A stretch of 64,000 nucleotides of DNA from Campylobacterales bacterium (GTDB lineage Bacteria; Campylobacterota; Campylobacteria; Campylobacterales; Sulfurimonadaceae). The notes under the pieces were generated by a model. The model ran no database searches, was not told where the DNA came from, and saw only the letters and a program-made list of their open reading frames with translations. The stretch spans positions 50,455 through 114,454 of the forward strand of contig JAPLGP010000030.1 in NCBI GenBank assembly GCA_026390075.1. The letters are read 5' to 3'. Position 1 is the stretch's first letter. Each line of letters opens with the position of its first letter. Positions 39,071 to 42,961 of this stretch are shown in pieces. The translations under genes and the position numbers were made by a program.

Positions 39071-39451
39071 TTGTTTGATTTTTTAGATAGTGATTGGTTC
39101 AATATATCGTTGCAAATAGTTTTTTTAATACTTATTACTTACGATATTAAAAAATATAGAGAGACGAAAAAAAAAGAGTATATGACAAATATAGTTTTAA
39201 CAATAGGCTTTGCTGTGTGGACTTTGTACCCGTATTACAATAGTTATTTCGCATGGGATGATGGGTTAAAACTGAAGATAATTTCCACATGCCAAGAGGA
39301 TGCAAATCAGACACTTTGTAAATGTGTGGATGAGAGAATTTTCAAAGAGTACAGTTTTGAGAGCTATCAGAGTTTAGATAAAAACAGTAGTGATTTTGTA
39401 GAGTTTATAAAAGAGGCAAAAAAGGATTGTTCAAATGTCCCATGGTTTTGA
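39071..39451 (+). CDS. Hypothetical membrane protein
   Basis: 126-aa ORF, two hydrophobic segments, in operon-like position. Confidence 0.6.
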   Translation: MFDFLDSDWFNISLQIVFLILITYDIKKYRETKKKEYMTNIVLTIGFAVWTLYPYYNSYFAWDDGLKLKIISTCQEDANQTLCKCVDERIFKEYSFESYQSLDKNSSDFVEFIKEAKKDCSNVPWF

Positions 39452-39692
39452 TTTAAACGCACCACTCGTATGTGAAGGAATCATAGGCGATGGCTGTGGG
39501 GGCGGAAGAATTTTTTTCATAAAAGATGAAACACTCTACGCAAATGATCCTATGACAAATGAAAATATTTTGCTTTTAGAAAATATCCACATGCCAAGAA
39601 GTGTGAGTAAGAAAGGGTGTGTTGTGACTATTGAGTGCGAAAATGAGTTGATAGAGTTTGATTTGTCGAAGATGAAAAAAAGTAAAACTTAA
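39435..39692 (+). CDS. Hypothetical protein
   Basis: 85-aa ORF overlapping previous gene by 17 nt. Confidence 0.6.
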   Translation: MSHGFDLNAPLVCEGIIGDGCGGGRIFFIKDETLYANDPMTNENILLLENIHMPRSVSKKGCVVTIECENELIEFDLSKMKKSKT

Positions 39693-39761
39693 AGTAGATA
39701 TCATTTTGAGTAAAAGTTTTGTATAATAGGCAAAATAATATGCAAAATAAAGGGAATAATT

Positions 39762-40079
39762 ATGCTTTCTTACAATACAAATGAACTCTTTAGTGCGACG
39801 GAAATGGCAAAAAATTTTGCAACCATCACATCTAAACTCTATAAAAACGAGTTGGAAAAAGTCGGAATTTTAAAAAACAATAAGCTAGATTTTGTGCTAT
39901 TAAAAAGTGAAGATTTTGAAAAAATCATAGAAAAAGAGGTTCAAAAAGTACTTTTTGAAGAAGATAGAAAGTTTGTAGCTTCGCAAGTAGAAAAGATAAA
40001 AAGTGGTGCAGCAAAATTTCACTCTCTCGAAGAAACACAAACTCAGCTTGATGCGGCAATAAAAATATATGAACATTAG
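39762..40079 (+). CDS. Phd/YefM-like antitoxin
   Basis: FSATEMAKNFATITSKLYKNELEKVGILKNNKLDFVLLKSEDFEKI; overlaps RelE/ParE-like toxin. Confidence 0.75.
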   Translation: MLSYNTNELFSATEMAKNFATITSKLYKNELEKVGILKNNKLDFVLLKSEDFEKIIEKEVQKVLFEEDRKFVASQVEKIKSGAAKFHSLEETQTQLDAAIKIYEH

Positions 40080-40368
40080 ATTTGAAGAGAGTTTTATCAA
40101 CTCTTTGGCTCTAAAACTAGAATATATAGCAAAAGATAATCCTCGTGCAGCTAGAAAATTTAAAGATGAGTTGATTGCATCATGCAAAGATATTTTACAC
40201 ATGCCCTATAAACACAGAAAATCAATTTATCATAATGATGAGAACATTAGGGACTTGATATTTAAAGGCTATACAGTTGTTTATATGATTGAAGATGAAA
40301 CAATTTTTGTTTTTGCATTTATTCATCATGAAAAATACAGCTATACTCAAGTGAAAAAATATACATAA
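40069..40368 (+). CDS. RelE/ParE-family toxin
   Basis: FEESFINSLALKLEYIAKDNPRAARKFKDELIASCKDI, IRDLIFKGYTVVYMIEDETIFVFAFIHH. Confidence 0.82.
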   Translation: MNIRFEESFINSLALKLEYIAKDNPRAARKFKDELIASCKDILHMPYKHRKSIYHNDENIRDLIFKGYTVVYMIEDETIFVFAFIHHEKYSYTQVKKYT

Positions 40369-40455
40369 AGGTTGGCATGTGGGACTAAAAGCAAACATTG
40401 TAAAAGCGGGGGATTTTATAAATTTTTAAGAAAAAGTATTAAAAAAAGGAAAACT

Positions 40456-42069
40456 ATGAACGGACAAAGCCAAACCCCACAAGAGATAAAATTACAACAG
40501 TTACAAGAACTTTTTCCTGAAGACAAAATAGATTTTGAAAAGCCAAAAAAAATTATTGTACTTGACAAACTTTCTACAGACAATATGAAAAAATTTGACC
40601 TTAATATTGAAAAAATCTTGGAGAACTGGGAAACTTTTCATGCAATTAGAGAACTTATTGCAAATGCTCTTGATGAACAACTTTTGACAAATACAAACGA
40701 AGTTCAAATTTTTAAAAATGGTAATTCATGGCTAATTCGAGACTTCGGACGTGGGGTTCAATATACCCATCTAACGCAAAATGAGAACCAAGAAAAGCTA
40801 AAAAATACCAGTGTAATTGGAAAATTCGGAATTGGTTTAAAAGATGCATTGGCAACATTTGACAGAAAAAAAATCAAAGTAGTTGCCAAATCCAAACACA
40901 GCCAAATTACAATTGCAAAATCGGAAAAAGAAGGCTTTCGGGATATTATTACACTTCATGCAATAATTGAAGATCCATTAGACACAAAATTTGTAGGGAC
41001 AGAATTTGAACTTGTTGGAGTAACTGACAAGGATATTGAAGATGCAAAAGATTTATTTTTAAAATTCTCGGGAGAACGAATAATTGAAGCAACCAAACAA
41101 GGACAGGTAATTGAGAAAAAAGGGAAACATGGTAATATCTACATTAACGGTGTTAAAGTTGCAGAAGAAGAAAACTTTTTATTCAGTTATAACATAACAA
41201 TTATGAATGCTTCAATAAAAAAGGCATTGAACAGAGAACGGACAAATGTTGGTAGAACTGCTTACACAGACTCCGTAAAGAAAATTTTATTAGCTTCTGC
41301 ATCAAAAGGTGTTGCTGAAATACTTGCCAAAGACTTGACTAACATTAATCGTGGAACAGCACATGATGAACTAACTTGGATTGATGTTCAAGAACATTCA
41401 GTAAAAATACTCAATCAACTAGGAAAGTATTTATTTGTAACTTCTTTGGAAGCAATGCAGCTTCCCGACATGATTGACCAAGCAAGAAATAGCGGACATG
41501 AAATCATAACAATTCCTGAAAATCTAAAATATAAAATTCAAGGCTTGTCAGATTTATCAGGCAACCCAATTGTTGACATAGGGCAATTTGTTTCAAACTA
41601 CAATGACAGTTTTGATTTTACATTTATCGACCCAAACAAATTGAACGAAAATGAAAAAGCTATTTATAAACTAACTCCAAGAATCATTAACTTGTTTGGT
41701 GGACAACCCAAAAAAGTTAAATTCATTAGTATTTCTTCGACAATGCGAAAAGACTTTTTTGCAGATGTGGAAACATTGGGTTGTTGGGACAAAGCGACAA
41801 ATTCAATTGTTTTATCTCGTAAAACTTTAAAAACTATTACAGACTACTCGGGGACATTAATCCATGAATTAATTCATGCAAAAACTGAACAAGATGATGT
41901 AACAAGAGCCTTTGAAAGTTCATTGACAGAAACTATTGGGCAATTATGCGGACATATACTGATAAATGAACAGAAAATTATTGTCTCTGGCATGAGCGCA
42001 GGTACTATATTGATGAAAATATTGAACTTTTGCCAGCAAAATTTACGGTGGTTATTTATCAGAAAGTAA
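40456..42069 (+). CDS. GHKL-type ATPase domain protein with C-terminal HExxH metallopeptidase-like motif
   Basis: HAIRELIANALDEQ (N box), WLIRDFGRGVQ, IGKFGIGLKDALATF (G box), TLIHELIHAKTEQDDVTRAFESSL (HELIH); start chosen at MNGQSQTPQ after AAAGGA rather than 40372. Confidence 0.72.
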   Translation: MNGQSQTPQEIKLQQLQELFPEDKIDFEKPKKIIVLDKLSTDNMKKFDLNIEKILENWETFHAIRELIANALDEQLLTNTNEVQIFKNGNSWLIRDFGRGVQYTHLTQNENQEKLKNTSVIGKFGIGLKDALATFDRKKIKVVAKSKHSQITIAKSEKEGFRDIITLHAIIEDPLDTKFVGTEFELVGVTDKDIEDAKDLFLKFSGERIIEATKQGQVIEKKGKHGNIYINGVKVAEEENFLFSYNITIMNASIKKALNRERTNVGRTAYTDSVKKILLASASKGVAEILAKDLTNINRGTAHDELTWIDVQEHSVKILNQLGKYLFVTSLEAMQLPDMIDQARNSGHEIITIPENLKYKIQGLSDLSGNPIVDIGQFVSNYNDSFDFTFIDPNKLNENEKAIYKLTPRIINLFGGQPKKVKFISISSTMRKDFFADVETLGCWDKATNSIVLSRKTLKTITDYSGTLIHELIHAKTEQDDVTRAFESSLTETIGQLCGHILINEQKIIVSGMSAGTILMKILNFCQQNLRWLFIRK

Positions 42070-42230
42070 GTAAACTTAATATGAAATATTGGTAGAAAAC
42101 ATCATTACAACACATGATGAACTTTACAGTGTTAGTTTGGATATTATAGTGTTACCAATGAAGTATAAAATTACAGAGAAGCACTTTGATGGGGTTTGCT
42201 TTTGTTTTTAGAACTGACGAAGAGTAATCA

Positions 42231-42386
42231 ATGAAAATAGATGAAATCCCAGAACCTAAAAAACAAAACCCACATGCCAAGACAAGAGAATTAAAAACAG
42301 CCATAGACGAGTTGGTCTATAAACTGTATAATTTAACCGATGATGAAATAAAAATCGTACAAGGAGAGCAAAATGGTAGCCTATAG
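42231..42386 (+). pseudogene. 51-aa ORF resembling the extreme C-terminus of type IIG/Eco57I-type methyltransferases (remnant)
   Basis: TAIDELVYKLYNLTDDEIKIVQGEQ resembles the common LVYxLYxLTxxEIxIVEG tail; no upstream methyltransferase body. Confidence 0.5.
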
Positions 42387-42573
42387 AGAAATTGTTAGAA
42401 ATCATGATGATATTATCCATATAACAAATATGTTAAAAGAGATGAAAACTGTGAGTGAGGTCATCATCGTGCCACTGGGTGAAACAAAAGAGGAAGATAT
42501 TAAAAAATTGCAAATATCTTCGATGGCTAAAACTTGGGATAACAGCGAAGATGAGGCATGGGATGAGCTATAA
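42373..42573 (+). CDS. Putative antitoxin of PemK/MazF-like pair
   Basis: 66-aa ORF overlapping the start of a MazF/PemK-like gene. Confidence 0.62.
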   Translation: MVAYREIVRNHDDIIHITNMLKEMKTVSEVIIVPLGETKEEDIKKLQISSMAKTWDNSEDEAWDEL

Positions 42574-42889
42574 AAAAGGCGATGTGTTGCTTGTGAATTT
42601 TCCTTTTACGGATTTAAGCAGTTCAAAAAAAAGACCTGTTTTGGCTATAAAAGATGAAAGTGAATATGGTGACATAGTCTGTTTTCAAATAACATCTAAG
42701 AAAAATCAATCAAGCCTTATGCAAATTCAATCAGCCGATATACTAAAAGAGCCTTTAAAACTTACATCATTTGTGAAATATGACAAATGTTTTACGATTG
42801 ATTCAAATGTAATTGATAAAAAACTAACAGAAGTTAATAGCAGTTTTTTACAACAATTAAAGGAGAGTTTTTGCAATGAGGTGTTTTAG
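42563..42889 (+). CDS. PemK/MazF-family toxin
   Basis: YKKGDVLLVNFPFTDLSSSKKRPVLAIKDESEYGDIVCFQITS; start at MSYKKGD. Confidence 0.82.
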   Translation: MSYKKGDVLLVNFPFTDLSSSKKRPVLAIKDESEYGDIVCFQITSKKNQSSLMQIQSADILKEPLKLTSFVKYDKCFTIDSNVIDKKLTEVNSSFLQQLKESFCNEVF

Positions 42890-42961
42890 TAAATTTCAAA
42901 CAATTTAAAAATAAAAACTTAATCTGATATAATTTTAAAAATTAAAAAAAAGAGAATCATT

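Follow-up and report, generated by a model that had tools for sequence, protein, structure and literature searches.

Introduction

Among the effectors of bacterial immunity, peptidases are an emerging class. GHKL domains have recently been shown to be fused to immune proteins, as in VcSduA, or to control them, as in CapK. VcSduA is a Shedu protein in which an N-terminal GHKL ATPase is fused to a nuclease, and it protects against phages (PMC12137116). A 2008 survey of GHKL proteins in restriction-modification (R-M) systems, the MORC and paraMORC proteins, names helicases and nucleases as their operon partners and does not mention a peptidase (PMC2292703). A survey of jumbo phages lists SprT-like zincins, ArdC-like zincins and GHKL (RIIA) proteins, each separately.

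Here we analyse a gene in the window, a stretch of 64,000 nucleotides from a Campylobacterales bacterium, whose product joins a GHKL-S5 ATPase to a predicted C-terminal zinc peptidase domain (hereinafter GHKL-zincin). An earlier note, made from the letters of the window, had recognised no characterised system with this pair, and the literature searched (open-licence full text) and the PADLOC models likewise gave none. The GHKL and zincin fusion was not found in that literature, and among catalogued defence systems PADLOC gives a weak match to TmtA only (E 0.009), over the GHKL stretch.

The closest described design is that of VcSduA, to which GHKL-zincin appears analogous. Both are single, accessory, defence-linked genes that encode a GHKL ATPase, a clamp-like middle domain and a C-terminal enzymatic effector. 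The effector of VcSduA, however, is a DUF4263 PD-(D/E)xK nuclease, whereas that of GHKL-zincin is predicted to be an HExxH zinc peptidase domain, and the two proteins have no sequence family match. Assignment to Shedu (SduA) was rejected because there is no DUF4263 Pfam match and the C-terminus is a zincin. Like prokaryotic MORC and paraMORC, GHKL-zincin has a GHKL and S5 ATPase, lateral mobility and an R-M neighbourhood; unlike them, it is mostly solitary rather than in operons, and it carries a zincin. Assignment to the MORC/paraMORC proteins of R-M systems was also rejected, as there is no conserved neighbour (30 loci) and an R-M gene or SNF2 helicase lies beside a minority of copies only.

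The predicted C-terminal domain resembles the minigluzincins (selecase, abylysin and jannalysin) and SprT/WLM proteins in being a small alpha-beta zincin in which a helix bearing Glu comes after the HExxH helix. Minigluzincins, Wss1 and Spartan, in contrast, are stand-alone or DNA-targeted peptidases without GHKL, and their sequence similarity to GHKL-zincin is marginal. Phage RIIA has the same Hsp90-like GHKL fold, but RIIA matches extend across the ATPase fold only, and several inspected phage members of PHROG 6077/8203 lack the zincin. IetAS and CapH-CapP share the ATPase and/or peptidase logic in immunity; these and others differ in having AAA ATPases or separate genes, and other peptidase families (PMC13373217 and general knowledge).

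Gene boundaries

The earlier note placed the gene at 40456-42069. This span is stop-free and sits within an uninterrupted forward-strand frame (40372-42069), but neither end is that of the gene, which starts at ATG 40585 and ends at about 41961. Specifically, homologues start with MKKFDLN, corresponding to ATG 40585 in the window and not to 40456. Their N-terminus reads M(K)KFDLNIEKILENWE, and the closest of them finish '...LCxxILDK*'. The parts of the frame are as follows.

40456 to 40584, forward strand: 43-codon in-frame upstream extension, missing from homologues
40585 to 41961, forward strand: core GHKL-zincin gene, homologous region of 458-459 aa (MKKFDLN...CGHIL), from homologue starts and ends and dN/dS
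40585 to 41019, forward strand: GHKL ATP-binding domain, residues 1-145, from Pfam, invariant columns and Foldseek
41020 to 41601, forward strand: S5-like domain and small middle domain, residues 146-339, from AlphaFold, Foldseek and invariant columns
41602 to 41958, forward strand: predicted minigluzincin-like C-terminal zincin domain, residues 340-458, from the isolated model and Foldseek
41863 to 41877, forward strand: predicted HELIH zinc-binding and catalytic motif (H427, E428, H431), invariant in the close family
41962 to 42069, forward strand: frameshift tail in place of the ancestral stop, from DNA comparison with the homologous loci L009 and L022

The 43-residue extension has no Pfam, plasmid or congener match. 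It looks like the N-terminus of an R-M methyltransferase, but database searches gave this source no support. At the other end, the ancestral stop near 41967 has been lost through a one-base deletion near 41961/41962, as the DNA comparison indicates; the gene ends in ATACTGGACAAATAA in L009 and in ATACTGATAAATGA in the window. Because the deletion took out this stop, about 35 non-homologous residues follow after about 41961.

L009 is the nearest relative, with 93% identity to the window protein. The dN/dS between the two genes is 0.054 for the whole core and 0.111 for the zincin part; therefore the protein was kept functional for most of the interval, and the core protein appears from this comparison to be under purifying selection.

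Island and flanking genes

The gene lies between a ParE-family toxin upstream and a PemK/MazF-family toxin downstream, in agreement with the toxin-antitoxin (TA)-rich island of the earlier note.

39693 to 42961, forward strand: accessory insertion between the gene at 39435-39692 and greA, from tblastn searches of congener loci with window genes
39762 to 40079, forward strand: putative antitoxin, weak Phd/YefM
40069 to 40368, forward strand: ParE-family toxin (PF05016, 6.9e-13)
42231 to 42380, forward strand: C-terminal scrap of an Eco57I/TaqI-like R-M methyltransferase, from protein similarity
42373 to 42573, forward strand: putative antitoxin of the MazF-like gene, from position only, with no family match above cut-off
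42566 to 42889, forward strand: PemK/MazF-family toxin (PF02452, 6e-11)

The methyltransferase scrap matches a Planktothrix DNA methyltransferase (47.6% over 42 aa, E 1e-4) and, more weakly, Eco57I/TaqI-like enzymes. The GHKL-zincin gene thus seems, from these similarities, to be placed in an eroded R-M/TA island. The distance from the 39435-39692 gene to greA is 3.27 kb in the window; in the congeners L044, L049, L057, L059, L062 and L065 the homologue of that gene lies ~50-80 bp from greA (tblastn), so the island is an accessory insertion. The gap before greA looks like a hotspot for small defence-type cargo. In the congener L050 (300-1520) it holds a protein that, judged by eye, resembles DUF1016-type nucleases.

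The window copy may itself be decaying, a passenger carried along in an island of R-M and TA remnants; this reading is compatible with the others, and we regard it as doubtful but well worth keeping in mind. The lost stop, the foreign upstream extension and the adjoining truncated methyltransferase point that way, as does an end branch in the tree of 0.086, longer than that of L009 (0.014); other copies of the family are visibly broken, one split (L023) and one shortened (L034). Nevertheless, all catalytic residues and the full core frame of the window copy are intact, and the low dN/dS against its nearest relative also argues against decay.

ATPase half

The N-terminal half of the window protein contains the motifs of the GHKL superfamily (ExxxNxxD, DxGxG and GxxGxGxx), namely the N-box E23..N27..D30E31, the G1 box D53xG55R56G57 and the G2 box G79KFGxGLKD87. 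The GHKL strings quoted in the earlier note (RELIANALDEQ, IRDFGRGVQ and IGKFGIGLKDALATF) and its C-terminal TLIHELIHAKTEQDDVTRAFESSL are all found in the ORF. The claim that one protein holds both the GHKL boxes and HELIH is thus correct, and both sets are invariant in 25 homologues. In the ATPase half, E23, N27, D30, D53-G55-G57 and G79-F81-G84-K86-D87 are invariant in the 25 aligned members, and these are, as far as conservation can tell, the residues that a working GHKL ATPase needs. Pfam HATPase_c_3 (PF13589) matches the window protein just above the cut-off (25.6 bits against 25), and PF13589/PF02518 are matched in 21 of the 25 members. In the S5-like domain, the block N216RExxxxxGR224 is invariant in the same members, and the basic residue that an S5-type domain supplies may lie in N216-R217...R224.

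The AlphaFold2 model of the full protein, made from an alignment of 23 natural homologues, has a pLDDT of 86.7 and a pTM of 0.73. In a Foldseek search of the PDB with this model, the Hsp90 N and middle domains come first, with topoisomerase IV and MORC4 further down the list. The alignments to Hsp90 N+M, MORC4 and the topoisomerase IV ATPase indicate a Bergerat fold with an adjoining S5-type domain.

Zincin half

Residues H427-E428-H431, followed by D438 and F443-E444, are invariant in the close family (25 members). The model places HExxH on a helix and E444 on the next helix, and E444 is the likely third zinc ligand. The last 119 residues, modelled alone, have a pLDDT of 93.5 and a pTM of 0.88. 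A Foldseek search of the PDB with this isolated domain gave selecase or abylysin structures as the top eight matches, with probabilities up to 0.99 (0.90-0.99 for the top five), TM-scores of 0.38-0.56 and modest E-values of 0.03-0.4; jannalysin, BepA (M48) and an M32 carboxypeptidase are lower matches. The zincin-like fold suspected in the earlier note is therefore predicted confidently, with minigluzincins on top, and the models strongly support both the architecture and the fold of GHKL-zincin. We conclude that the C-terminal half is, by structure prediction, a minigluzincin-like zincin.

At the level of sequence, a PDB search with the single protein gave no meaningful match. The SprT-like Pfam match over the HELIH stretch is weak (E 0.0017; 18.6-19.0 bits, under the cut-off of 25.6), which is short of membership in SprT/Spartan/Wss1, and a match of DUF6782 to the C-terminal half is also weak (0.028). 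Distant phage members often have a residue other than Glu at 444 and a His at 443, so that the third ligand may be E or H; the member of one characterised phage lacks the E444 ligand. This Glu/His exchange would be compatible with SprT/WLM-type sites as well.

The C-terminal ends of family members vary. In many, a low-complexity linker follows the zincin and ends in a short aromatic/hydrophobic motif. Such C-termini are found in L010, L012, L016, L019, L020, L021, L030, L033, L036, L039 and L066; the end motifs are PWFKFW, PWYKFW, RWYKFW, WLQKFFGE and FFRRLFGTK, and the linker of L033 is ~200 aa long and contains a repeat. The linker and end motif could be a docking or autoinhibitory tail. The Sulfobacillus member (L028:7965-9596) seemingly ends in a PcrA/UvrD-type tudor domain; the tudor Pfam match (1e-9) was obtained for one member of the family, and the matching C-terminal extension is present only in L028. 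On a conjugative plasmid of Citrobacter braakii (L040:8001-8348), the zincin end occurs by itself as a 115-aa fragment, which is annotated as a hypothetical protein and would be either a remnant or a stand-alone peptidase.

Family distribution and mobility

The earlier note had presented the fusion as a single candidate. The pairing and, by structure prediction, the zincin fold stand, but the protein is no one-off; it belongs to a widespread and mobile family. The 25 homologues, 42-93% identical to the window protein, are bacterial, archaeal or plasmid-borne. One scan of genome contigs gave 28 loci, with hosts in Bacteroidota, Pseudomonadota, Nitrospirota, Acidobacteriota, Bacillota and Actinomycetota, one Lokiarchaeon and one Poseidoniaceae archaeon. 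Plasmid copies are present in Priestia, Croceicoccus, Natrinema, Salinibacter, Euzebya and others, and six viral contigs have a family member. In E. coli, a search for homologues of the Citrobacter gene of the family gave no match.

Within lineages the gene is patchy, being carried by 1/397 genomes of the phylum of the window and by 2/399 genomes of the order to which the Paenalcaligenes host belongs. This patchiness excludes a housekeeping family, the alternative that the earlier note had set against its own candidate, and defence genes and prophages are found nearby. In the tree, the window gene and L009 are nested among copies that otherwise all belong to Bacteroidota (support 96/94, given for the four-row set); the window gene was therefore most likely acquired horizontally. 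The family is rare, and it moves horizontally. One copy (L023:4804-6712) is split by what appears by eye to be an IS200-type transposase gene, and another (L034:8007-8909) is shortened by divergence into a stop. Judging by these broken copies, gene turnover seems fast.

Genomic neighbourhood

A defence gene recognised by PADLOC is the immediate neighbour at 9 of the 28 genome loci, and prophage carriage is also seen, in line with the conflict setting suggested in the earlier note. The neighbours are a type II R-M methyltransferase and endonuclease (L009), TmtA (L012), an AriA/Old/GajA-like ATPase (L016), PDC-S06 (L019 and L022), HEC-04 (L021), IetA (L024), a DrmD/BrxH-like helicase with a type IIG R-M enzyme (L025) and, in the Lokiarchaeon (L026), a PD-T4-7 homologue (2.8e-33) 24 bp downstream of GHKL-zincin. 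On the Salinibacter plasmid pSR56 the gene lies between hsdS and hsdR, inside a type I R-M operon, and in Natrinema a pAgo is one gene away. In L026 (9419-11060), another ORF, which contains an HELGH motif, comes after the PD-T4-7 homologue, and a TPR protein lies upstream with an overlap of a few bases.

Against a defence reading, the immediate neighbour is not a recognised defence gene at 19 of the 28 loci, and ORFs at a distance of over 5 kb, taken as a control, also gave 2-3 defence hits in 25. Eight neighbours were first chosen by eye and the remaining loci were scanned afterwards. The enrichment is given as a count and without a p-value because the control hits come partly from the same islands.

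An all-against-all comparison of the neighbours at 30 loci found no recurrent neighbour gene at the threshold used, which rules out a conserved operon partner. A tight link to one R-M type was rejected as well, since R-M neighbours occur at a minority of loci only. Because no gene recurs beside the family, GHKL-zincin would work alone or with host factors.

These data also bear on the possibility that the protein is a regulator and not an effector, whose peptidase cleaves a repressor or antitoxin and so turns on adjacent R-M or TA genes, as peptidases of the CapP/ImmA type do. Two TA pairs flank the window copy, and peptidase-controlled immune operons such as CapH+CapP exist (PMC13373217). However, neither a repressor nor any other partner gene is conserved near the family, neighbours vary at nearly every locus and many copies are solitary, so that a regulatory role is improbable.

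In a marine proteobacterial bin (L014:6629-15689), GHKL-zincin and a DUF2130 gene lie between dnaN and the recF/gyrB region. With dnaN, recF and gyrB named by eye, this interval is an unusual site for accessory genes.

Another possibility is a protease coupled to a DNA clamp and acting, like Wss1, Spartan or SprT, on DNA-protein crosslinks or on proteins bound to DNA; it is unlikely, although it ranks above a regulator. Here a MORC/MutL-like clamp would hold DNA while the minigluzincin trims stuck proteins, and the gene would be mobile because it is useful under genotoxic or phage stress. Wss1 and Spartan, which are proteases activated by DNA, belong to the minigluzincin/SprT/WLM class (PMC4559962), and MutL/MORC-type GHKL-S5 proteins act on DNA (PMC2292703). 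There are also the weak SprT-like and WLM Pfam matches, a weak PDB profile match to Wss1, the member with the PcrA/UvrD tudor domain and the one between dnaN and recF/gyrB. On the other hand, the patchy distribution (1/397 and 2/399) and the prophage and plasmid carriage are unlike those of a repair housekeeping gene, no conserved DNA-binding segment was found in the family, and the neighbours are defence genes rather than repair genes.

Proposed function and mechanism

We propose that GHKL-zincin is a stand-alone mobile conflict effector in which a GHKL clamp controls a fused metallopeptidase, a reading to which we give an even chance. A conflict role is moderately supported by the mobility and the neighbourhood, and phages or mobile elements are the most likely target. 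The GHKL-S5 module would bind and hydrolyse ATP and, by analogy with Hsp90, MutL, GyrB and MORC, would probably dimerise and close clamp-like on a partner or DNA. Clamp closure may position or release the C-terminal minigluzincin-like zinc peptidase and thereby put it under the control of ATP. In the putative peptidase site, H427, H431 and probably E444 would be the zinc ligands, and E428 the general base. Infection would be the trigger, and the peptidase would cut a phage or host protein during it and so protect against phage.

There is a real chance that GHKL-zincin is a new defence class. The most specific version is more tentative and less likely than not: a new immune effector class found in bacteria, Asgard archaea and haloarchaea, a one-protein ATP-gated metallopeptidase whose GHKL clamp senses infection and unleashes the minigluzincin, with both full and peptidase-less versions in phages, the latter as possible decoys or inhibitors. 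If true, a compact gene that combines a GHKL clamp and a zinc peptidase would extend the modular logic of GHKL effectors to proteolysis. In this single gene the ATPase and the peptidase could be mutated separately, at N27 and at E428.

Distant relatives, phages and tandem forms

GHKL and zincin are still together at 22-30% identity. The Moorella phage MTATph1 and the Exiguobacterium phage vB_EalM-132 have compact versions. A profile built from distant relatives found 17 full-length viral relatives (>400 aa), and HExxH lies within the last 75 residues in 15 of the 17, against 0.4% in shuffles. Because of this and the invariance in 25 homologues, the pairing of the motifs is not due to chance.

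Relatives of the Moorella phage protein are contained in ~95 phage records, the majority of which match across the ATPase half only. Among named phage proteins inspected, those of two Vequintavirinae, PaMx11, a Vibrio phage and an uncultured podovirus have the ATPase part without HExxH. By HMM, phrog_6077 and phrog_8203 (PHROGs of unknown function) are relatives. Large phages carry relatives of zincin-bearing and zincin-less forms alike, which also fits a benefit to the phage and counts against a defence role; the zincin-less relatives raise the question of counter-defence.

The family could thus be primarily phage-encoded, an RIIA-like host-takeover or counter-defence factor whose peptidase acts against host immune proteins, with bacterial copies as captured prophage cargo. 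The abundance of phage relatives, the structural similarity to RIIA, the two PHROGs, the HExxH-bearing members on viral contigs and the Moorella phage copy, which sits close to replication genes, are consistent with this. However, the closest family (>40% identity) is found mainly on chromosomes and plasmids, frequently next to bacterial defence genes, only six viral contigs hold it, and RIIA similarity is common to all Hsp90-type GHKL folds. We therefore consider a phage origin of this kind quite unlikely, slightly more so than a crosslink protease, and retain the conflict effector as the preferred reading.

Tandem forms are found on megaplasmids of Alkaliphilus and Aneurinibacillus, where tandem GHKL modules have the same zincin at the end. 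On these Bacillota megaplasmids (L072:2943-6257 and L083:3368-6244), repeated GHKL-S5-middle modules precede one zincin. The Alkaliphilus tandem protein has three N-boxes, and the tandem proteins appear from their sequences to be ATPase modules covalently joined in one chain.

On viral contigs, the gene lies in the tail-gene region in L067 and at the lysis end in L068, and such placement, among structural genes or at the lysis end, is typical of cargo genes. In the single protein of 672 aa encoded by a Mu-like viral contig (L066:7404-9422), a TerD domain (PF02342, 3e-51) is fused ahead of GHKL-zincin.
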